The notes beneath the pieces were generated by a model. It worked only from the letters and a program-made list of their open reading frames with translations. It had not been told where the DNA came from and did not search any database. A DNA stretch of 64,000 bases, from positions 62,001 to 126,000 of the forward strand of contig JAEEJN010000089.1 of the NCBI GenBank assembly GCA_016281935.1. The letters are read 5' to 3'. This document shows, piece by piece, positions 42,984 through 54,750 of this stretch. Made by a program: the position numbers and the translations under genes. How positions within the stretch are numbered: the first letter of the stretch is position 1; every line of letters begins with the position of its first letter. This stretch comes from Bacillota bacterium. GTDB taxonomy: Bacteria > Bacillota > Clostridia > Christensenellales > UMGS416.

Positions 42984-43799
42984 CTACTTATAACTGTGGA
43001 TACCGGGAAGAAACGTATTGACCCCAATATAGGTGAATATGACGCAGATGAAACCGATCACGGCAAACCATGCGGCCGATCTGTCTTTCCAGCCGCGGCG
43101 TATACGCAGATGGAGATAGACCGCATAGATCAGCCAGGTCACGAGAGACCATGTCTCTTTGGGATCCCATGACCAATAACTGCCCCAAGCACGTTCTGCC
43201 CAGATCGATCCGCTGATGATACAGAAGGAGAGGAACAGAAGTCCGAGACAAACACTTCGGTAGGATATAAGATCCAATTTTTCTTTTTCAGGCACATGCC
43301 GATCCCAGAAACTCCTGTCCTGCATCTTTTCCCGCAGAAGAAAAATGAGCGAAACGACAAAAGAGACGCCGAAAGCCCCGTATGCAATGATTGCGGTGGA
43401 TACGTGAAAACCCAGCCAATTGCTTTGAAGCGCAGGCATGAGAGCTTTGACTTCCCGACTCTGCATCGCAGCATAACCGATAATCAGAAAGATTACGGGA
43501 GCAGAAAAAGCGCCGATCATCGGGAATTTGAACCTGTATGTGAAAATCAGGCTTACAAGGCAGAGCCCCCATGCGAAACTGGTTGCGAATTCATACTGAT
43601 TCGTCATGGGGAGCCTTCCGGCGCCTATTCCTCTGCAGATGAGAGCAGCAGTATGAAGGACAAGTCCGGCTGCCTGCAGAAGGATGGCGACACGGGAAAG
43701 CTTGTCGTTTTTTACGGCAATGAAAACAAAATACAGGATCATGGATGCAAAGTAGAGCAGCATGACAGCGGTAAACAGAGTGTTTTCGATTTTCAGCAT
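42984..43799 (-). CDS. ccsA: Cytochrome c biogenesis protein CcsA/ResC (haem-handling)
   Basis: WxWD motif GSYWSWDPKETWSLVTWLIYAVYLH, multi-TM. Confidence 0.93.
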   Translation of the reverse strand: MLKIENTLFTAVMLLYFASMILYFVFIAVKNDKLSRVAILLQAAGLVLHTAALICRGIGAGRLPMTNQYEFATSFAWGLCLVSLIFTYRFKFPMIGAFSAPVIFLIIGYAAMQSREVKALMPALQSNWLGFHVSTAIIAYGAFGVSFVVSLIFLLREKMQDRSFWDRHVPEKEKLDLISYRSVCLGLLFLSFCIISGSIWAERAWGSYWSWDPKETWSLVTWLIYAVYLHLRIRRGWKDRSAAWFAVIGFICVIFTYIGVNTFLPGIHSYK

Positions 43800-43829: not shown

Positions 43830-45113
43830 TTAAGTATTGCTGTTTTGGGATCTTTGGATGGCTTGCTCCATTTGCTCCCGGAACAGAGCACTGCTTTTGA
43901 TACTCAGACCGGAAACAGTCCAGGATCCGTCATTCTCCTGAACAGCCCAGACTTTCCTGGGCTGGAGATAGAAGGCAAGAAAAATACCCAGAAGTGTAAG
44001 AATGCCACCAGCGAATGCGAGGGCAGTGAAACGATCTCTCTTGATCTGAAGGATCGTATAGTTCTGAGGCTCCGAAAAACGGAACTCATAATCATCGACA
44101 GTGATCGTTTCTCCTTCCATAAGGACATTCATGCCGAGAAGCTGTTCCTTATAGTAAAGCGTGTACAGATAGGCCGGGTTGTTCAGGGCGCCGGAAGCAC
44201 TCGCTGGGCCGCGACCGTCGATAAATACATAGTCAGGATACAGCGCATTGAAATGGAGGATGAGTTCAGGAAGATCCATTACGGTCAGAGATTCGCCTGC
44301 ACAGAGGACTGTTTCCTGAAGGAGAGATCCGTTTTTGATTACGCTTACACGAGCGGCCCATCCTGTGGAATTCTGATAATACTTATAGCCGAACAGGGAG
44401 GCGGGATGATTTACACTGATCTCTGCCGCCTGACTGTTCCCTGTCAATGAATCGTGCACGGTGATGTCTGCCCTGTACTGAGATACAGTATCATCATCCC
44501 TCAGTTCCACGCGAAAACTGTCTATAGAGCAGATGTACGATGTGTCTCCTACTTGCTTTGACTGTCCGGATACACCGTATAGGGAATAATCCTCATGGGT
44601 CATCTGTCCAAGTCCGAACCCGAGGATCAACAGAACGACACCAAGGTGACAGATCCACGCTCCCCAGAGACCGATTCTGTTCGATGATGAAAACAGGATC
44701 TTTTTGCCATCCGCTTCGGCCTTTACCGGTTTGGGCATCGAGAGTGCCGCAAAGACAGGTCCCGGTTTATCCACTGAATGAAAGCTGCATGTTACAGATT
44801 CGGACAGTGCCTTGTCTATTTTCTGTTCATCCTTAAATCGGCGAAATAGCTGAGGAGCTCTGATCAGGTTGCAGAGCAGCAGATTGGCAATGAGAAAACC
44901 TGCAATGACCAGAAACCATGGGCTGTGATAAAGGTCATCCATATGGGTCGCGATGATGAGAGCAGCGGCTCGTTCTGAATAGGCTTCTTTATACCATTCA
45001 AAAGTCTGTCCCTGTGTGATGAAGCTTCCGATCGCGCATGAGACGATCAGAATCAGCAGGAGCAGAATAGCAAACTGCATGGAGGAAAGATATTTCCAGA
45101 TTTTTTTCAACAT
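43830..45113 (-). CDS. resB: Cytochrome c biogenesis protein ResB/Ccs1
   Basis: LSSMQFAILLLLILIVSCAIGSFI start, HLGVVLLILGFGLG, large extracytoplasmic domain. Confidence 0.92.
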   Translation of the reverse strand: MLKKIWKYLSSMQFAILLLLILIVSCAIGSFITQGQTFEWYKEAYSERAAALIIATHMDDLYHSPWFLVIAGFLIANLLLCNLIRAPQLFRRFKDEQKIDKALSESVTCSFHSVDKPGPVFAALSMPKPVKAEADGKKILFSSSNRIGLWGAWICHLGVVLLILGFGLGQMTHEDYSLYGVSGQSKQVGDTSYICSIDSFRVELRDDDTVSQYRADITVHDSLTGNSQAAEISVNHPASLFGYKYYQNSTGWAARVSVIKNGSLLQETVLCAGESLTVMDLPELILHFNALYPDYVFIDGRGPASASGALNNPAYLYTLYYKEQLLGMNVLMEGETITVDDYEFRFSEPQNYTILQIKRDRFTALAFAGGILTLLGIFLAFYLQPRKVWAVQENDGSWTVSGLSIKSSALFREQMEQAIQRSQNSNT

Positions 45114-45179: not shown

Positions 45180-46484
45180 CTATTGTCCCAGAAGAGCCAT
45201 TGCTTCAGCAATCTTGGCTTCTGAAGTATCCAGGCAACGGAAGGCAAGGTCGGAATTATGAGCGCCTTCCGCATTTTCCACATAGCAGAAATCAAAGAAC
45301 CACTGAGCTTCTCTGTGGAGTGTACGGACCTGATTTAGTTCGTCTTCGCTCATTTTGCCTTCGTCGACTGCAGCGGTCAGAGCACTTTTGAGAGCGGAGA
45401 GTTTGTTGCCGACTTCCGTTTCCCTTGTGGTGACCCGTTCCTGAATCCGACGAACATAACTCTTCATATCCGGTTCATCATGGCACTGAGCACATGTGGA
45501 AAGAAGCGTTTCGTTTTCGAGCGGGCTTACCAGAACGTGGCTGTGATAAACAGTACCGTCGTCTGCCATCTCCATGGGCATATGGCAGTCTGCGCAGCTC
45601 AGTACGCCTGCATGTTTTCCGAAAAGGAAGGTCTCCATTTCCGGATGCTGGGCTTTAAGCATGTGGGTGCCTGTGCCGGGCTGCTCCCAGTCATAGAAGC
45701 CAACGGTGCCGTCAGGCAGGACCATATTGTTATAGTAGTCCAGTATCGCTTCCGGGGTCATCGTATCTTTTCCGGAATAAGGCATCATCGTTTCCTTGTC
45801 CGTCGGAGTGAAATAATACTCAATATGACACTGACCGCAGGAAAGAACAGACGGATCGATTGCGTCGGCATTGGCGCCGAGAGCTTTCGTGACATAGCTG
45901 TGGGTTATCGTGATCTTACCGGCGTTGCCGGGGTCATTGCCATGACATGAATAGCAGGACACATTTTCTTCCATTTTTGCCAGGACTTCAGCGAAGTCCA
46001 TGGTATATGCGGAAACACCCAGATCGTTCACCAGTTTAGTGAAGTTGGGGGTCTTGCACGTCAGACAGTTGGCCATGGGATGCGGACGTTCCGTTTTGGC
46101 AACGTCTTCGAGACAATATTCATGACCTCTGGCGGATCCGTAGTCTTTGGCAAAACCGTAACCCTGATAAATGTCGACAAGATAAGGATCCTGCTCAAGG
46201 TAGGAAATGACGTAGCTGTTGTCTTTGTTGGCTCCCATCGTAGCGACGATATACGGATAGATCTCAGACCAGTCCTGCGCATTGACCGTTCCGTCTTTGC
46301 TGGAAGGTGTGGGTGCATCTACATCCAGATAGGTGATATCTTCTCTGGAAAGAGGGCCCAGATCACCGCGGTTCTTCATGTGGTAGAGGATATCGCCGCC
46401 AAACAGACCGGAGAGGAGAAGTGCGACAGCTGCAACGATCAGGGCTGAGATCACAAGCTTGAGAACCTGATTTCTTTTTTCCAT
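45180..46484 (-). CDS. nrfA: Pentaheme cytochrome c nitrite reductase (ammonia-forming)
   Basis: Haem motifs CLTCK (catalytic), CYSCH, CGQCH, CADCH, CAQCH; KHAGVLSCADCHMP; N-terminal TM/signal anchor. Confidence 0.96.
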   Translation of the reverse strand: MEKRNQVLKLVISALIVAAVALLLSGLFGGDILYHMKNRGDLGPLSREDITYLDVDAPTPSSKDGTVNAQDWSEIYPYIVATMGANKDNSYVISYLEQDPYLVDIYQGYGFAKDYGSARGHEYCLEDVAKTERPHPMANCLTCKTPNFTKLVNDLGVSAYTMDFAEVLAKMEENVSCYSCHGNDPGNAGKITITHSYVTKALGANADAIDPSVLSCGQCHIEYYFTPTDKETMMPYSGKDTMTPEAILDYYNNMVLPDGTVGFYDWEQPGTGTHMLKAQHPEMETFLFGKHAGVLSCADCHMPMEMADDGTVYHSHVLVSPLENETLLSTCAQCHDEPDMKSYVRRIQERVTTRETEVGNKLSALKSALTAAVDEGKMSEDELNQVRTLHREAQWFFDFCYVENAEGAHNSDLAFRCLDTSEAKIAEAMALLGQ

Positions 46485-46499
46485 GATTCCTCAGTCTCC

Positions 46500-47294
46500 T
46501 TATAGGGCGGTAATGACCTTGACGGGACACTTCTCGGCGCATTTGCCGCACAAAGTGCAGTTGGCATAGTTCACATGCGCGAGATTGTTGGTGACAGTGA
46601 TGGCTTCGAACTCACACTGACGTGTACAGAGCATGCAGCCGATGCATCCTGCTGAACAAACCGCTTTGACCTGAGGGCCTCGGTCCCGGTTGGAGCACTG
46701 GACCCTAACGCGACGGCTTTCAGGTACCAGTTCAATCAGACCCTTGGGGCAGGCTTTGGCGCAAAGACCGCAGCCCACACATTTGCGTTCGTTCACAACG
46801 GCGACGCCGTCGACTACATGAATTGCATCGTTCGGACAGACAGATACACAGGAACCGAGTCCGAGACACCCGAAATCGCAGTCGGTGATGGAAAGACCGT
46901 TCAATGCAACACTGCGGCAGTCCATGACACCGACATAATTGCCTTGGTTCTTTGTGACTCCGCAGCTGCCTTTGCATCGTACAAAGGCGACTTTCCGTTC
47001 AGCCATTTCGGCATCTGTTCCCATGATTGCGGCAATCATTTCCGCGACAGGTTTTCCACCGACGGGGCAGGAGCCTGCAGGAGCTTCTCCTTTTGCAATA
47101 GCGGCTGCAAGCGCATCGCATCCGGCAAAACCGCAGGCGCCGCAGTTGTTTCCCGGAAGGCATTCACGGACGGCTGTTTCCCGTTCGTCAACGTCTACAT
47201 GGAACTTTTTGCCGGTCCAGACGAGGCCGATCCCAACGATTGCGCCGATCAGAGTGATGACGACGGTCGTGATGAGAATGATGTTTCCGTTCAT
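46500..47294 (-). CDS. rnfB: Rnf electron transport complex subunit B
   Basis: CLPGNNCGACGFAGCDALAAAIAKGEA and several 4Fe-4S motifs (CVGCGLCAKACP, CIGCMLCTRQC, CTLCGKCAEKCP). Confidence 0.96.
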   Translation of the reverse strand: MNGNIILITTVVITLIGAIVGIGLVWTGKKFHVDVDERETAVRECLPGNNCGACGFAGCDALAAAIAKGEAPAGSCPVGGKPVAEMIAAIMGTDAEMAERKVAFVRCKGSCGVTKNQGNYVGVMDCRSVALNGLSITDCDFGCLGLGSCVSVCPNDAIHVVDGVAVVNERKCVGCGLCAKACPKGLIELVPESRRVRVQCSNRDRGPQVKAVCSAGCIGCMLCTRQCEFEAITVTNNLAHVNYANCTLCGKCAEKCPVKVITAL

Positions 47295-47310: not shown

Positions 47311-47889
47311 CTAAAACGACAGCCCGGCGAAACCCATGAAGGCAATGGACATCAGGGCGGCTGCAATCATAACGATCGGAGCGCCGCGGAGAGGAGCCGG
47401 AAGGTCCTCTTCATTGATGCGGCTGCGGATACCGGCAAGGAGAACGATGGCCAATGTGAAGCCAAGGGCTGTTCCAAAGCCGGAGAGGACACACTGTAGG
47501 AAATTATATCCGTTCTGCACATTGGTCAGAGCTACGCCCAGAACAGCACAGTTGGTCGTGATCAGGGGGAGATAGATACCAAGGGCCTTGTAGACGGAAG
47601 GAGATGTTTTTTTCAGGAACATCTCAACGATCTGTACAAGAGCTGCGATCACGAGAATGAAGACGATCGTCTTCATATAGTCCATACCCAGAGGAGCAAG
47701 GACATGGTCATATACGAGACTGGCGACAGCGGATGCGATCGTCATGACGAAAATGACTGCCATGCCGAGGCTGGCGGAAGGCTTCATCGATTTGGACACG
47801 CCGAGGAAGGAGCAGATGCCCAGGAACTGATTCAGTACGACGTTGTTGATAAGTGCTCCGCCGATGATGAGAAGGATCAAGTCTTTCAT
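47311..47889 (-). CDS. rnfA: Rnf complex subunit A
   Basis: NVVLNQFLGICSFLGVSKSMKPSASLGMAVIFVM. Confidence 0.96.
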   Translation of the reverse strand: MKDLILLIIGGALINNVVLNQFLGICSFLGVSKSMKPSASLGMAVIFVMTIASAVASLVYDHVLAPLGMDYMKTIVFILVIAALVQIVEMFLKKTSPSVYKALGIYLPLITTNCAVLGVALTNVQNGYNFLQCVLSGFGTALGFTLAIVLLAGIRSRINEEDLPAPLRGAPIVMIAAALMSIAFMGFAGLSF

Positions 47890-48572
47890 TTGCTTTCAAC
47901 CTCCTCTTTTTTGCTGTCGCAGGCCAGGGAACATCCAGCACAGTTACCGTCGCATTCCTGTTCGACCAGCTGACGCTGTCTCGTTTTGATGCCTATGGCA
48001 TTCATGATGATGATGAAGAAAGCGATGACCAGGAAGGCTCCCGGAGGCTGCACGAAAATGCCGATCGGATCCATGGACTTGGGAAGGATCTGATAACCGA
48101 ATGCGGTTCCGTTTCCGAGAACCTCTCTGAAAAGACCGGCCAGAGTCAGGGCAATCGTGAATCCAAGGCCCATACCAAGGCCGTCCATTACGGAGAGCAC
48201 AGGCGTATGCTTGTTCGCATAGGCTTCCGCACGGCCGAGAATAATGCAGTTGACTACGATCAGCGGGATATAGATGCCAAGCGCTTCATAGACCGAAGGA
48301 AGATACGCTTCCATAAGGAGTTCAGTCACCGTGACCAGAGATGCGACGATCACGATGTAACTGGGGAGACGCACCTGATCGGGGATCACTTTGCGCAGCC
48401 AGGAGATCACCAGGTTGGAAAGAATCAGTACGGCTGTTGTGGAAAGCCCCATGCCGATACCATTGATGGCTCTGGTAGAAACAGCTAGCGTCGGGCACAT
48501 ACCGAGCATGAGGACCAAGGTGGGGTTTTCCTTGATCAGACCGTTATACAGACGTTCAATGTATTTGTTCAT
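47886..48572 (-). CDS. rnfE: Rnf complex subunit E
   Basis: LYNGLIKENPTLVLMLGMCPTLAVSTRAINGIGMGLSTTAVL. Confidence 0.96.
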   Translation of the reverse strand: MNKYIERLYNGLIKENPTLVLMLGMCPTLAVSTRAINGIGMGLSTTAVLILSNLVISWLRKVIPDQVRLPSYIVIVASLVTVTELLMEAYLPSVYEALGIYIPLIVVNCIILGRAEAYANKHTPVLSVMDGLGMGLGFTIALTLAGLFREVLGNGTAFGYQILPKSMDPIGIFVQPPGAFLVIAFFIIIMNAIGIKTRQRQLVEQECDGNCAGCSLACDSKKEEVESK

Positions 48573-48573
48573 C

Positions 48574-50139
48574 TTATGCCCCCTTGATCATGCTGTGGAA
48601 GAAGTCCAGAGCGGCATTCACTGCGTTCACGATCGCTTTGGAGGAGATGGTGGCGCCGGAGATTCCGTCGATTTCATTGTCCTTCGAACTTCCGCCATCC
48701 TTCAGAAGCTTCAGGAAAGCCGCGCTGCGTCCGTTGAACTGATCCTTGAAAAGGGGTTCGGCCGCAAGAGAACCTTTTCCGGGCGTTTCATGCAGTTCCG
48801 TAAAGGAGATGGAATTGATCGTACCGTCAGATGTAAGACCCACGGAAAGACCGATGTTGCCGTCATAGCCTTCAGCTGATGTGACGGCAATCGCATAACC
48901 GGCGGTATTGCCAGAATCATCTAGCCCCCGTACGACTTCATTGATCGTGACGCGGCCAAAATCATTCCCGTAAATCTGCCCTTTGATCTCCTGAGCTTCA
49001 GGAACGGCTTCAAACGTGACGGCACCGGGAACGACTTCCTGATATGCGGCCCAGGCGGCTTTTTCCTTCTGCTCGTCGATCGTATCTTTCGTCATGGAGA
49101 ATACTCCGCTCAGGGCGACGCCTGCGATCAGTGCGATCAGCGTGAGAGCGACCACAGGCTTGGGAATGCGCTGAAGGAAAGGCTTGGCCGGTTCGCCGGA
49201 AAGCTTCGCCAGAGCACTGCGCCGGAAGGCGTAGGGCTTGGAGATGATATAAGTATCGATCAGCGGAACGAAAAGGTTCGCGATGATGATGGAATAGGAG
49301 AACGAGTCCGCGGAAGATCCGTAGATACGGAACAGAGCTCCGAGAACACCGATCAGGACTCCGTAGACTGTCTGTCCGAGACGGCTGACAGGCGACGTCA
49401 CATAGTCGGTTGCCATGAAGAACGCGCCGAGAACGACTCCGCCGCCGCACAGATGAGCGGCAAGGAATGCGGGATCGAACCCCTGTCCTCCGAAGATCCC
49501 CATGATCAGCGTGAAGGCGATGAGAACGGAGAAGCAGATTTGTCCATGGATGATGTCCATCGACCAGAGGAAAAGCCCTCCGATGAGAAGCGCAAGGATG
49601 GAAGAACCGATGATGCCGTTGGAAGTCCCAAGGAACATCTCCGTGACGTTGACGGCACGGCCGGCCAGAAGTTCCGCCGTGGGTGTGGCTGCTGATACAC
49701 CGTCTACCGTAAACCGCGTCATGGCTCCGGAGAAGGAGATGAGCAGGAAGCAGCGCGCAGCCAGGGCCGGGTTCACAAAGTTCTTGCCCAGTCCGCCGAA
49801 GGCGCACTTGACGACGAGTATCGCAAAAACGGAACCGAGGATCGGACAATACAGCGGAGTATCGGGAGAGAGGGTGAGGGCCAGCATAAGACCTGTGACC
49901 AATGCGCTTCCGTCTTTCCACGTGTCCGGTTTGTGACAGAGTTTGTCAAACACGAATTCCGTGGCGACAGCTGTCAGTACGGATGCGAGTATCACCCAAA
50001 GCGCTTTGAGCCCATAGACACAAACGCCGACTGCTGCAGCGGGAACGAGAGACAGGAAGACCACGTGCATGATGTACCGCGTGGTCCAACGATCTCTGAC
50101 GTGCGGACCGGAGGAAAGATTCAATGTCATATTCATCAT
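48574..50139 (-). CDS. RnfD-RnfG fusion protein (Rnf complex subunits D and G)
   Basis: N-terminal RnfD with flavinylation-type TDYVTSP (49390-49407); C-terminal RnfG with FMN-binding DGISGATISSKAIVNAV (SGAT at 48649-48660), in one continuous 521-aa frame. Confidence 0.9.
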   Translation of the reverse strand: MMNMTLNLSSGPHVRDRWTTRYIMHVVFLSLVPAAAVGVCVYGLKALWVILASVLTAVATEFVFDKLCHKPDTWKDGSALVTGLMLALTLSPDTPLYCPILGSVFAILVVKCAFGGLGKNFVNPALAARCFLLISFSGAMTRFTVDGVSAATPTAELLAGRAVNVTEMFLGTSNGIIGSSILALLIGGLFLWSMDIIHGQICFSVLIAFTLIMGIFGGQGFDPAFLAAHLCGGGVVLGAFFMATDYVTSPVSRLGQTVYGVLIGVLGALFRIYGSSADSFSYSIIIANLFVPLIDTYIISKPYAFRRSALAKLSGEPAKPFLQRIPKPVVALTLIALIAGVALSGVFSMTKDTIDEQKEKAAWAAYQEVVPGAVTFEAVPEAQEIKGQIYGNDFGRVTINEVVRGLDDSGNTAGYAIAVTSAEGYDGNIGLSVGLTSDGTINSISFTELHETPGKGSLAAEPLFKDQFNGRSAAFLKLLKDGGSSKDNEIDGISGATISSKAIVNAVNAALDFFHSMIKGA

Positions 50140-51491
50140 TTGCCTCCCGCCTGCGCCACCGCGGCGCGTTTGATTGCTGTGATCTCTGCTTTTGCCTGCT
50201 TAAAGGTCTGTGTCAGGGGACGTTTGGCCGGGCAGATATAGGTGCATGAACCGCAGGCTACACATTCAAGACCGTAGAGCTTTTTTTCATAACGCTCGTA
50301 GTCTTTGGCTTCCGCCGCTTCCGCCAGAAGCTGAGGAAGCAGCCCGGCGGGACAAACCGTAGTGCAGCGTCCGCAGTGCAGGCATGCTGTCATCTGAGCC
50401 TGAGCCTTTTCGGCGGGATCGCTTCCCAGGAGCGTGATGCCGTTGGTCGTCTTTTGAACATTGACCTTGAGACTGCCGACAGCAAAGCCCATCATGGGAC
50501 CGCCGGAGAGGGCTTTCTTCAGATCCACATTATCCTTAAGACCGCCACAGGCCTCAACAAGTTCTTCAAATGAAGTACCGTCCCGGACTATAAAATTGCC
50601 GGGTTTCTTCACGGCGTCGCCGCTGACAGTCAGGACATGACGGAACAGGGGTTCGTTGTGAGCGACTGCGCGTTCGATCGCATAGAGTGTGCCAACGTTG
50701 TCCACGATGCAGCCGACATCTGCAGGCAGCTTGGCTACCGGATAGTCGACGCCTGCAATCACGGTGATAAGATTATGCTCACCGCCCTGAGGATATTTGG
50801 TGCGGAGCACGACAACGTCGATCTTGTCCTCTCCAGCGCAGGCCGATTTCATGGCAGTAATGGCTTCGGGCTTGTTGTCTTCGATGCCGATATAACCGCG
50901 TGCATTGGGGAACAGACGGAGGACCAGTTTGATGCCGTCCACGATTGCTTTGGGTTCTTCCCGCATGAGCTGATCATTGCAGGTCAGATAAGGTTCGCAC
51001 TCGGCTCCGTTTGCGATGACATAGCGGATCGCCTCGGGATCACGGGGCTTCAGTTTGACATGGGTGGGGAAACCTGCGCCGCCCAGACCGACGATTCCTG
51101 CAGCCTGGATGCGGTTCAGGATCTCATCGTTGGACAGAGAAGATGCGTCTTCTTCCTGTCCGAGCCCTTCGATGGGGGTGAACAGTCCGTCGTTGTCTAC
51201 GACGATGCATTCGGCCATCGCCCCTGAGATGATCCGCCGCTTTTCAACGGCTTTGACTGTTCCCGAACAGGAACAGATGATGTTGGCAGAAACAAACCCG
51301 TCTGCCTGAGCTATGATCTGACCGACCTGTACTGCGTCGCCCTTTTTGACGATCGCCTTGGCAGGTTTTCCGATATGCTGGGCTACAGGGAATACCATTT
51401 CGCCCTTGGGATCGAAGCTGCGCAGCGGTACTTCCCTGGCCAGACGCTTCTGGTCGTTGGGATGAACCCCGCCGCGGAACGTGTCGCGCAT
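50136..51491 (-). CDS. rnfC: Rnf complex subunit C
   Basis: VGLGGAGFPTHVKL, GAECEPYLTCNDQLM, two 4Fe-4S motifs CLHCGRCTTVCP and CVACGSCTYICP. Confidence 0.96.
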   Translation of the reverse strand: MRDTFRGGVHPNDQKRLAREVPLRSFDPKGEMVFPVAQHIGKPAKAIVKKGDAVQVGQIIAQADGFVSANIICSCSGTVKAVEKRRIISGAMAECIVVDNDGLFTPIEGLGQEEDASSLSNDEILNRIQAAGIVGLGGAGFPTHVKLKPRDPEAIRYVIANGAECEPYLTCNDQLMREEPKAIVDGIKLVLRLFPNARGYIGIEDNKPEAITAMKSACAGEDKIDVVVLRTKYPQGGEHNLITVIAGVDYPVAKLPADVGCIVDNVGTLYAIERAVAHNEPLFRHVLTVSGDAVKKPGNFIVRDGTSFEELVEACGGLKDNVDLKKALSGGPMMGFAVGSLKVNVQKTTNGITLLGSDPAEKAQAQMTACLHCGRCTTVCPAGLLPQLLAEAAEAKDYERYEKKLYGLECVACGSCTYICPAKRPLTQTFKQAKAEITAIKRAAVAQAGGK

Positions 51492-52272: not shown

Positions 52273-53289
52273 TTATTTCTGAGCTTCTTCAACTGCCACG
52301 GCCACAGCCACAGTCGCGCCGACCATGGGGTTGTTGCCCATGCCCAGGAAGCCCATCATCTCAACATGCGCAGGCACGGAGGAAGAGCCGGCAAACTGAG
52401 CATCGGAATGCATGCGGCCCATGGTGTCGGTCATGCCGTAGGAAGCGGGGCCGGCGGCCATGTTGTCGGGATGCAGAGTACGGCCGGTGCCGCCGCCGGA
52501 AGCAACGGAGAAATACTTCTTGCCGGCTTCCCAGCGCTCTTTCTTATAGGTTCCGGCAACGGGATGCTGGAAGCGGGTGGGGTTGGTAGAGTTGCCGGTG
52601 ATGGAAACATCAGCGTTTTCATGCCACATGATGGCTACACCTTCACGGACATCATCCGCACCGTAGCAGCGGACCTTGGCACGGTCACCGGTGGAATAGG
52701 GGGTCTCATTCACGATGGTCAGAGCATGATCTTCCTTCACGTCAGCGGAAAGATAATCATACTTGGTCTGCACATAGGTGAAACCGTTGATGCGGCTGAT
52801 GATCATGGCCGCATCCTTGCCCAGGCCGTTCAGGATGACGCGAAGGGGCTTGGTGCGTACTTTGTTGGCGTTCAGAGCGATCTTGATGGCGCCTTCCGCA
52901 GCAGCGAAGGACTCATGACCGGCGAGGAACGCGAAACACTCGGTATCCTCTTCCAGAAGACGGGCACCGAGATTGCCGTGTCCGATGCCGACCTGACGCT
53001 GGTCTGCTACGGAACCGGGAATGCAGAAGGCCTGCAGGCCGATGCCGATCATACGGGCAGCTTCAGCAGCAGTCTTGACGCCTTCCTTCAGGGCGATGGC
53101 GGCACCGAGTTCATAAGCCCATTTCGCGTTTTCGAAGCAGATGGGCTGAGTGCTTTCTACGATCTTATAGGCGTCTACGCCTTTGGAGTTGTTGAAGGCT
53201 TTGACTTCGTCAAAATCCTTAAAGCCATATTTGTCCAGGATCGGCTGGATCTGGGGCATACGACCGTCATAATTCTCAAACAGAGCCAT
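52273..53289 (-). CDS. GGGtGRT protein family
   Basis: Contains SVASGGGTGRTLHPDNMAAGPASYGMTDTMGRMHSDAQ and C-terminal GMGNNPMVGATVAVAVAVEEAQK. Confidence 0.9.
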   Translation of the reverse strand: MALFENYDGRMPQIQPILDKYGFKDFDEVKAFNNSKGVDAYKIVESTQPICFENAKWAYELGAAIALKEGVKTAAEAARMIGIGLQAFCIPGSVADQRQVGIGHGNLGARLLEEDTECFAFLAGHESFAAAEGAIKIALNANKVRTKPLRVILNGLGKDAAMIISRINGFTYVQTKYDYLSADVKEDHALTIVNETPYSTGDRAKVRCYGADDVREGVAIMWHENADVSITGNSTNPTRFQHPVAGTYKKERWEAGKKYFSVASGGGTGRTLHPDNMAAGPASYGMTDTMGRMHSDAQFAGSSSVPAHVEMMGFLGMGNNPMVGATVAVAVAVEEAQK

Positions 53290-53306: not shown

Positions 53307-54008
53307 TTACTCTTTGCGCGGATCAATCCATTTGACCGCGCCGTCCTCGGCTTTGAAGCGACCGTAGGTGCCGATGTTCTCTTCATAGGCTTCATTGGGG
53401 GATTTGCCCGCTTTGATGGCATCCATCATCTTGCCCAGGGAAAGGAACTGATAGCCGCAGACCTGATCGTCCTTGTCCAGAGCGATCTTGGTCACGTAGC
53501 CTTCCGTCATTTCCAGGAAGCGGACACCCTTGGCCTTGGTTCCGTACATGGTACCGACCATGGAACGGAGGCCCTTGCCCAGATCTTCCAGACCGGCGCC
53601 GATGCGCAGGCCGTCATCAGAGAAGGCAGACTGGGTGCGGCCATAGACGATCTGCAGGAACAGTTCGCGCATGGCGGTGTTGATGGCGTCGCATACGAGG
53701 TCAGTGTTCAGAGCTTCCAGGATGGTTTTGCCGGGAAGGATCTCAGCGGCCATGGCAGCGGAGTGGGTCATGCCGGAGCAGCCGATCGTTTCCACCAGTG
53801 CTTCCTCGATCACACCGTTTTTCACGTTCAGGCTGAGTTTGCAGGTGCCCTGCTGGGGAGCACACCAGCCAATGCCGTGCGTGTAGCCGGAAATGTCGCT
53901 GATCTCTTTGGCCTGGATCCATTTTCCCTCTTCAGGGATGGGAGCGGGGCCATGGTTCGGGCCTTTGGCCACGCATACCATTTCCTCAACTTCGCGGGAA
54001 TATTGCAT
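53307..54008 (-). CDS. NifU/TSCPD-like iron-sulfur cluster assembly scaffold-type protein
   Basis: ETIGCSGMTHSAAMAAEILPGKTILEALNTDLVCDAI, with CAPQQGTCKL; partner of the GGGtGRT gene. Confidence 0.82.
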   Translation of the reverse strand: MQYSREVEEMVCVAKGPNHGPAPIPEEGKWIQAKEISDISGYTHGIGWCAPQQGTCKLSLNVKNGVIEEALVETIGCSGMTHSAAMAAEILPGKTILEALNTDLVCDAINTAMRELFLQIVYGRTQSAFSDDGLRIGAGLEDLGKGLRSMVGTMYGTKAKGVRFLEMTEGYVTKIALDKDDQVCGYQFLSLGKMMDAIKAGKSPNEAYEENIGTYGRFKAEDGAVKWIDPRKE

Positions 54009-54294
54009 AATGCCTACCTCCTTATAGCGATTACGCTAGAATGTAAGTGTTTGAAATGGAGTCTTCAGACAGCTTGCTGAAGACATACCATCTAAGTTAT
54101 TCTATCATGTATATCTGGGCATTTCAATGCACGGAACAGAGAATTTTCAGTTTGAAAAATGGAAGGGAGGCAGAGCACTCTGCTGCATAGGCTGAGGATT
54201 GCCATACGGGCATTGCCTGTCTGTGAAATGGCTGACAAATGGTGTCAGCCGTGCTAGAATGAATCACTGCAGAAAGGTCAAGGAGGTGGATCAT

Positions 54295-54750
54295 ATGAAT
54301 CACCCGGAGACAGCCAGAGCCCTGTTCCTGAAAGGTTATAACTGTGCTCAGGCGGTTTTTTGCGCTTTTACTGATGTTACCGGACTGAGCAGGGACGAAT
54401 CTGCGAGGATCGCTTCCTCTTTCGGCGGCGGGTTCGGGAGACTCCGGGAAGTTTGCGGTACGATGAGCGCTGCCGTGCTTATCCTCGGATACGCACGGGG
54501 TTACTCCGATCCGAATGACCGGAATGCAAAGATCCGTCACTACAAGCTCGTACAGGAGTATGCCAGACGATTCCGCGAAGCCAACGGTGCTTTGCTGTGC
54601 AGGGACCTTCTGAAAGACGTGGAGACGAAGGAGGGGCCTGAACCGGAGGAACGGACTCAGGAGTACTATGCACGCAGGCCATGCCCTATGATTGCATATC
54701 GGGCTGCCGATATTCTGGATCGTATGCTTAAGGAATCCGCAGAAGAGTAG
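54295..54750 (+). CDS. C_GCAxxG_C_C family redox protein
   Basis: GYNCAQAVFCAF...SSFGGGFGRLREVCGTMSAAVLILG...CRDLL...RPCPMI. Confidence 0.88.
   Translation: MNHPETARALFLKGYNCAQAVFCAFTDVTGLSRDESARIASSFGGGFGRLREVCGTMSAAVLILGYARGYSDPNDRNAKIRHYKLVQEYARRFREANGALLCRDLLKDVETKEGPEPEERTQEYYARRPCPMIAYRAADILDRMLKESAEE

Follow-up and report, generated by a model that had tools for sequence, protein, structure and literature searches.

All six RnfABCDGE homologues lie side by side on the minus strand of the window (the whole stretch of 64,000 nucleotides analysed here), as judged by Pfam and NCBIfam models, with D and G forming one gene. They are followed by a cytochrome gene and two cytochrome c maturation genes, so that the operon reads rnfC-rnfDG-rnfE-rnfA-rnfB-nrfA-resB-ccsA. 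RnfD and RnfG are usually separate polypeptides, a trait that is not definitional for Rnf and that is missing here. The genes, with the matches that identify them, are the following:

50136..51491, minus strand: rnfC (TIGR01945, 500 bits)
48574..50139, minus strand: rnfDG, fused RnfD-RnfG of 521 aa, starting 4 bases inside rnfC and ending just ahead of rnfE (open frame, Pfam, NCBIfam and PDB comparison)
47886..48572, minus strand: rnfE (TIGR01948, 247 bits)
47311..47889, minus strand: rnfA (TIGR01943, 259 bits)
46500..47294, minus strand: rnfB, 264 aa (phmmer match to 7zc6_B, 9e-75)
45180..46484, minus strand: nrfA, pentaheme ammonia-forming nitrite reductase with an N-terminal membrane anchor (Cytochrom_C552, 1.9e-75)
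43830..45113, minus strand: resB/ccs1, cytochrome c maturation (ResB, 7e-49)
42984..43799, minus strand: ccsA-type cytochrome c assembly protein, CcsB in NCBIfam naming (TIGR03144, 264 bits)

Upstream of the operon are a weak NifU-like scaffold protein (53307-54008, minus strand) and a C-GCAxxG-C-C family protein (54199-54750, plus strand), while the frame at 52273-53289 (minus strand) had no NCBIfam match.

The sequence-only reading had proposed that RnfD and RnfG are joined in one 521-aa polypeptide, unlike the separate rnfD and rnfG genes of studied operons, and this is borne out. The minus-strand frame contains no internal stop over its 521 codons, whereas the plus-strand reading of the same interval is interrupted by stops. 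Pfam places NQR2_RnfD_RnfE at residues 8-303 (E 2.8e-94) and FMN_bind at residues 424-512 (E 1.6e-20), and the subfamily models of NCBIfam both exceed their cut-offs, rnfD with 230 bits (cut-off 207) and rnfG (TIGR01947) with 104 bits (cut-off 102). In a phmmer comparison with the PDB, the RnfD chains 7zc6_D and 9eri_D match residues 3-304 and the RnfG chains 9eri_G and 7zc6_G match residues 330-520. By all three comparisons the protein contains a whole RnfD (residues 3-304) and a whole RnfG (residues 330-515). Its parts, all on the minus strand, are:

49231..50118, minus strand: RnfD part, residues 8-303, a 10-TM flavoprotein (Pfam 2.8e-94; Foldseek to 9eri_D and 7zc6_D)
49684..49686, minus strand: T152 in VDGVSAATP, predicted FMN attachment site of the RnfD part (aligned with C. 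tetanomorphum T153)
49405..49407, minus strand: D245 in MATDYVTSP, predicted riboflavin contact (aligned with A. woodii D249)
49165..49230, minus strand: junction, residues 304-325 (about 22), predicted cytoplasmic linker (homologues differ in length by a few residues; no gene break)
49099..49158, minus strand: N-terminal TM anchor helix of RnfG, residues 328-347, TM11 of the fusion (aligned with RnfG of 9eri_G and 7zc6_G)
48595..49152, minus strand: RnfG part with FMN_bind, residues 330-515 (TIGR01947 above cut-off; FMN_bind 1.6e-20)
48649..48651, minus strand: T497 in DGISGATISS, predicted FMN attachment site of the RnfG part (ApbE motif Dxx[S/T]GA[S/T], PMC12052999)

An AlphaFold model of the fused protein is of moderate quality (pLDDT 73, pTM 0.55), and we used it for domain folds and helix extents only; a Foldseek search with it retrieved both the RnfD and the RnfG chains of solved Rnf complexes. 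What had been taken for a linker TM is the normal N-terminal anchor of RnfG, a single long helix (residues 327-368) in the model. In the established Rnf topology the C-terminus of RnfD and the N-terminus of RnfG are both cytoplasmic. The fusion can therefore leave the topology as it is, and its junction would lie opposite the FMN domains. The covalent link would thus tether the two chains without fixing the distance between their FMNs, so that the sequence-only reading is not supported on this point. Nor is a 1:1 ratio of RnfD to RnfG something new, since the solved complexes already hold one of each.

The flavin sites differ in part from those first proposed. TDYVTSP is not a flavinylation motif: its Asp corresponds to D249, a riboflavin contact in A. 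woodii (PMC11889175), whereas the predicted flavinylated residue is T152 (in AATP), equivalent to the flavinylated Thr of RnfD in A. woodii (T156) and C. tetanomorphum (T153) (PMC11889175, PMC9588780). Alignment to 7zc6_D and 9eri_D gives N123 and D245 as the riboflavin contacts (published ligands: PMC9588780, PMC11889175), and T152, N123 and D245 are invariant in 57/57 fused homologues. The position of T497 is Thr in 23 of these proteins and Ser in 33, one being truncated there; ApbE accepts both residues, Ser less well (PMC12052999). The sites for covalent FMN and for riboflavin are thus present by alignment in the two parts, flavinylation itself being a prediction. ApbE was not found in the window's own MAG (88% complete), despite the two predicted attachment sites, while it occurs in 16/16 other fused genomes; we therefore attribute its absence to probable incompleteness of the MAG and rejected the notion that flavinylation is lacking.

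Could two ordinary genes have been merged by an assembly or sequencing error, such as an indel? The window's MAG does consist of 117 contigs. Nevertheless, an order-wide protein search recovered the same unbroken fusion in 16/396 genomes, 59-72% identical to that of the window, and one further genome (G061) has a copy cut by contig ends. Full-length single-frame fusions with 57-79% identity exist in dozens of independent assemblies, mostly ruminant-gut Clostridia MAGs, among them some assembled into one or two contigs (G381, G178, G283). Another 46 fused loci came from scanning named genome contigs, nearly all of them full-length and again mostly from such MAGs. The probability of an artefact is accordingly negligible. 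Neither is there support for an internal translation start that would yield a separate RnfG: a Shine-Dalgarno-like site ahead of an in-frame ATG, GTG or TTG in the linker or TM was seen in 0/57 fused homologues, as opposed to 92-100% of the true starts of all rnf genes (rnfC 56/61, rnfDG 61/63, rnfE 58/61, rnfA 57/58, rnfB 42/42). One may also consider that the chain is cleaved after synthesis, in which case the working RnfD and RnfG would be separate as usual and the fusion of little consequence. The linker, residues 304-325, is indeed variable in sequence among homologues and modelled with low confidence (pLDDT 51-60), but no protease motif was seen in it, its predicted location is cytoplasmic, and in all 57 distinct fused proteins 44-52 residues, counting the TM, separate RnfD from the RnfG stalk. 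We consider cleavage improbable.

The remaining subunits are those of a complete Rnf. Alignment to the 7zc6 and 9eri chains shows that every known cluster ligand of RnfA, B, C and E is kept, and that the ferredoxin-entry Fe-S domains of RnfB and the NAD+/FMN and Fe-S sites of RnfC are intact. Among homologues, all eight Fe-S cysteines of RnfC are kept in 56/56, and the cysteines of the membrane [2Fe-2S] cluster are kept in 56/56 (RnfA C26, C114) and 57/57 (RnfE C26, C109). The Rnf complexes of A. woodii (9eri) and C. tetanomorphum (7zc6) have the same order C-D-G-E-A-B and all the cofactor ligands, with 42-45% identity in RnfD. Here, in contrast, RnfD and RnfG are one chain and nrfA-resB-ccsA is appended, and a few further residues set the fused clade apart: RnfC C75 (60/60 versus 0/46 others), and in RnfD C202 and D278, which replace an otherwise invariant Pro and Glu, respectively. 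Another such difference is a clade-specific C-terminal motif of RnfE:

47919..47954, minus strand: CX3CX2CX3C tail of RnfE (C207, C211, C214, C218), from homologue comparison

The tail is found in 53/54 RnfE proteins of the fused clade (loci L053-L096 and L129-L143) plus G061 and in 0/46 unfused ones. Basic residues precede it, its location is probably cytoplasmic, and an Fe-S or Zn site on it is possible.

The operon's NrfA adjoins the rnf genes, as the sequence-only reading had noted, and the association is strong, although it arose from few events. NrfA is present in 17/396 genomes of the order, and 16 of these are exactly those with the full-length fusion; in the seventeenth, G364, nrfA-resB-ccsA stands by itself (43% identical) and an unfused Rnf is encoded elsewhere. 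At 46 fused loci nrfA occurs together with the rnf genes, the other loci ending too early apart from L083 and L095, which differ, and no nrfA was seen in the unfused Rnf operons that were read. Distances in rnfDG correlate with those in nrfA (0.74) no less strongly than with those in rnfA (0.65), and almost as well as with those in rnfC (0.82), so that nrfA diverges in step with rnfDG much as a subunit of Rnf does. A tree of RnfD gathers the fused proteins in a single clade (SH-aLRT 100) on a long stem; its neighbour is family f36, which belongs to the same class, while the order's own Rnf branches elsewhere. The fused, nrfA-bearing operon thus largely reflects one origin followed by retention, and common descent within a single clade links the fusion to nrfA. 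Fusions in two other Bacillota, G618 (of f36) and G435, are probably independent and have no nrfA in the operon, and the fusion was therefore rejected as a general marker of NrfA. The neighbourhoods of these two (L174 and L180) contain no heme protein, and the RnfE tail of G618 is likewise Cys-rich, with a different motif.

The NrfA proteins retain the hallmarks C140-K144 (CXXCK), four CXXCH, R119, Y223 and Q279-H280 in 44/44 homologues; the NCBIfam equivalog for ammonia-forming nitrite reductase scores 209 bits, below its cut-off of 595, whereas the Pfam family cut-off is far exceeded. As in NrfHA systems there is the NrfA catalytic subunit with its CXXCK heme and conserved Arg, Tyr and Gln-His, but here NrfA has its own N-terminal anchor and NrfH (PF03264) is absent from 18/18 genomes, which means that there is no quinol route of the NrfHA type. 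The NrfA of relatives has FMN_bind arrays fused to its N-terminus, its C-terminus or both. At L095 (11654-15800) two proteins come after the fused Rnf, one of 778 aa with multiple FMN_bind domains and the other a flavocytochrome-c-type reductase replacing NrfA. At L142 (1764-4688, minus strand) NrfA is fused behind FMN_bind and a flavocytochrome-c-type FAD domain in one polypeptide. Taken together, the arrays, the L142 fusion and the L095 swap show that the reductase is exchangeable and that its constant neighbour is flavin-based. The L142 chain holds two terminal reductases in a single protein.

With flavin-linked, exchangeable reductases and no NrfH, the simplest reading is that electrons pass from FMN-G to the reductase, either directly or via extra FMN domains. 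Our main interpretation, to which we assign a probability of roughly 0.6, is that an Rnf with an RnfDG chain, co-inherited with NrfA, would export electrons from FMN-G to extracytosolic reductases. Electrons would enter from ferredoxin via RnfB or from NADH via RnfC, and the usual Rnf cofactors would carry them to the FMN of the RnfG part at the outer face, presumably with Na+ pumping. From FMN-G they would reach the membrane-anchored NrfA, besides or in place of returning through RnfD to NAD+, and NrfA would reduce nitrite to ammonium. The FMN_bind arrays on NrfA in relatives may serve as a wire, whereas the plain NrfA of the window would need direct contact with RnfG; flavocytochrome-c-type (fumarate-type) reductases join or replace NrfA in some relatives. 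The cytoplasmic linker would tie the FMN-G carrier to RnfD and so enforce co-assembly.

An alternative explanation is that this is an ordinary ferredoxin:NAD+ Rnf with a neutral fusion, and that nrfA-resB-ccsA is an independent, co-travelling module for nitrite detoxification. Every ferredoxin and NAD+ site is intact, nrfA-free fusions exist in G618 and G435, and G364 shows that nrfA-resB-ccsA can stand alone in a genome with an unfused Rnf. Since the NAD end of RnfC is intact, export may be a mere side branch, and NrfA could be fed by another electron donor. Further points against export are that L083 has a fused Rnf with no reductase within 1.5 kb after rnfB, that the window's MAG lacks ApbE, and that a single inherited event largely accounts for the 16/16 association. 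An independent module, however, fits poorly with the absence of NrfH from all 18 genomes, with a co-divergence of nrfA as strong as that of an Rnf subunit, and with the FMN_bind arrays and the FMN-linked reductase swap at the same place, which suggest an FMN donor. We thus regard it as unlikely, though by no means far-fetched. That a second, unfused Rnf handles the normal role is ruled out for 16/17 fused genomes, which have none; G328 has one.

If export to NrfA is correct, Rnf would serve, beyond ferredoxin:NAD+ exchange, as the electron source for a quinone-free respiration of nitrite, possibly fumarate, in one group of gut and rumen bacteria; disposing of reductant in this way competes, in the rumen, with methanogenesis and the release of hydrogen. 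A fuller picture is possible and put forward tentatively: uncultured rumen Clostridia would respire nitrite or fumarate, and pump ions in doing so, by a quinone-free machine, an Rnf variant specialised for sending electrons of ferredoxin or NADH to interchangeable extracytosolic reductases (NrfA, flavocytochrome-c type). It would have an RnfDG chain and, at the tail of RnfE, an extra Fe-S or metal site. The covalent D-G link also provides a natural test of an actively discussed point of Rnf mechanism, namely whether FMN-G, the mobile carrier, has to be a free subunit.

There is precedent for electron export from Rnf to a cytochrome: in Methanosarcina acetivorans, Rnf is encoded with an outside heptaheme cytochrome, MmcA, that accepts its electrons (PMC11024163). 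Both systems pair Rnf with an outside multiheme c-type cytochrome, but MmcA is a heptaheme conduit, in contrast to the pentaheme terminal reductase and fused RnfDG found here. In Christensenellales, Meheust et al. 2021 (PMC8238504) described multi-flavinylated RnfG proteins that carry a multiheme domain; these are probably the FMN_bind-NrfA fusions of the relatives, so the partner system is partly foreshadowed. In that work the cytochrome is taken as part of RnfG; in our case NrfA bears the FMN arrays, and RnfG shares a chain with RnfD. Their main text mentions neither an RnfD-RnfG fusion nor NrfA. In Nqr/Rnf-like two-gene systems, RnfD-like and RnfG-like parts likewise work closely for export, but their RnfD carries an NAD-binding domain (PF00175) and no covalent FMN site (PMC8238504, PMC10979944), whereas here there is a full Rnf, the FMN site is kept and Pfam finds no PF00175 on RnfD. 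Among openly accessible papers, our search found no account of RnfD fused to RnfG or of an operon that joins Rnf and NrfA; in PMC12718326, "RnfDG" stands for genes that are separate. The fusion by itself is of modest novelty, the setting in an Rnf-NrfA module being the interesting part.

Other arrangements of RnfG also occur in the order. In two Rnf operons (L151 and L152, of G310 and G083) the genes read C-D-E-A-B and rnfG is missing from the position between rnfD and rnfE; their genus has fused members as well. Unfused relatives carry a giant RnfG with several FMN_bind repeats (L154, 7887-10664; L155, 8452-10548).
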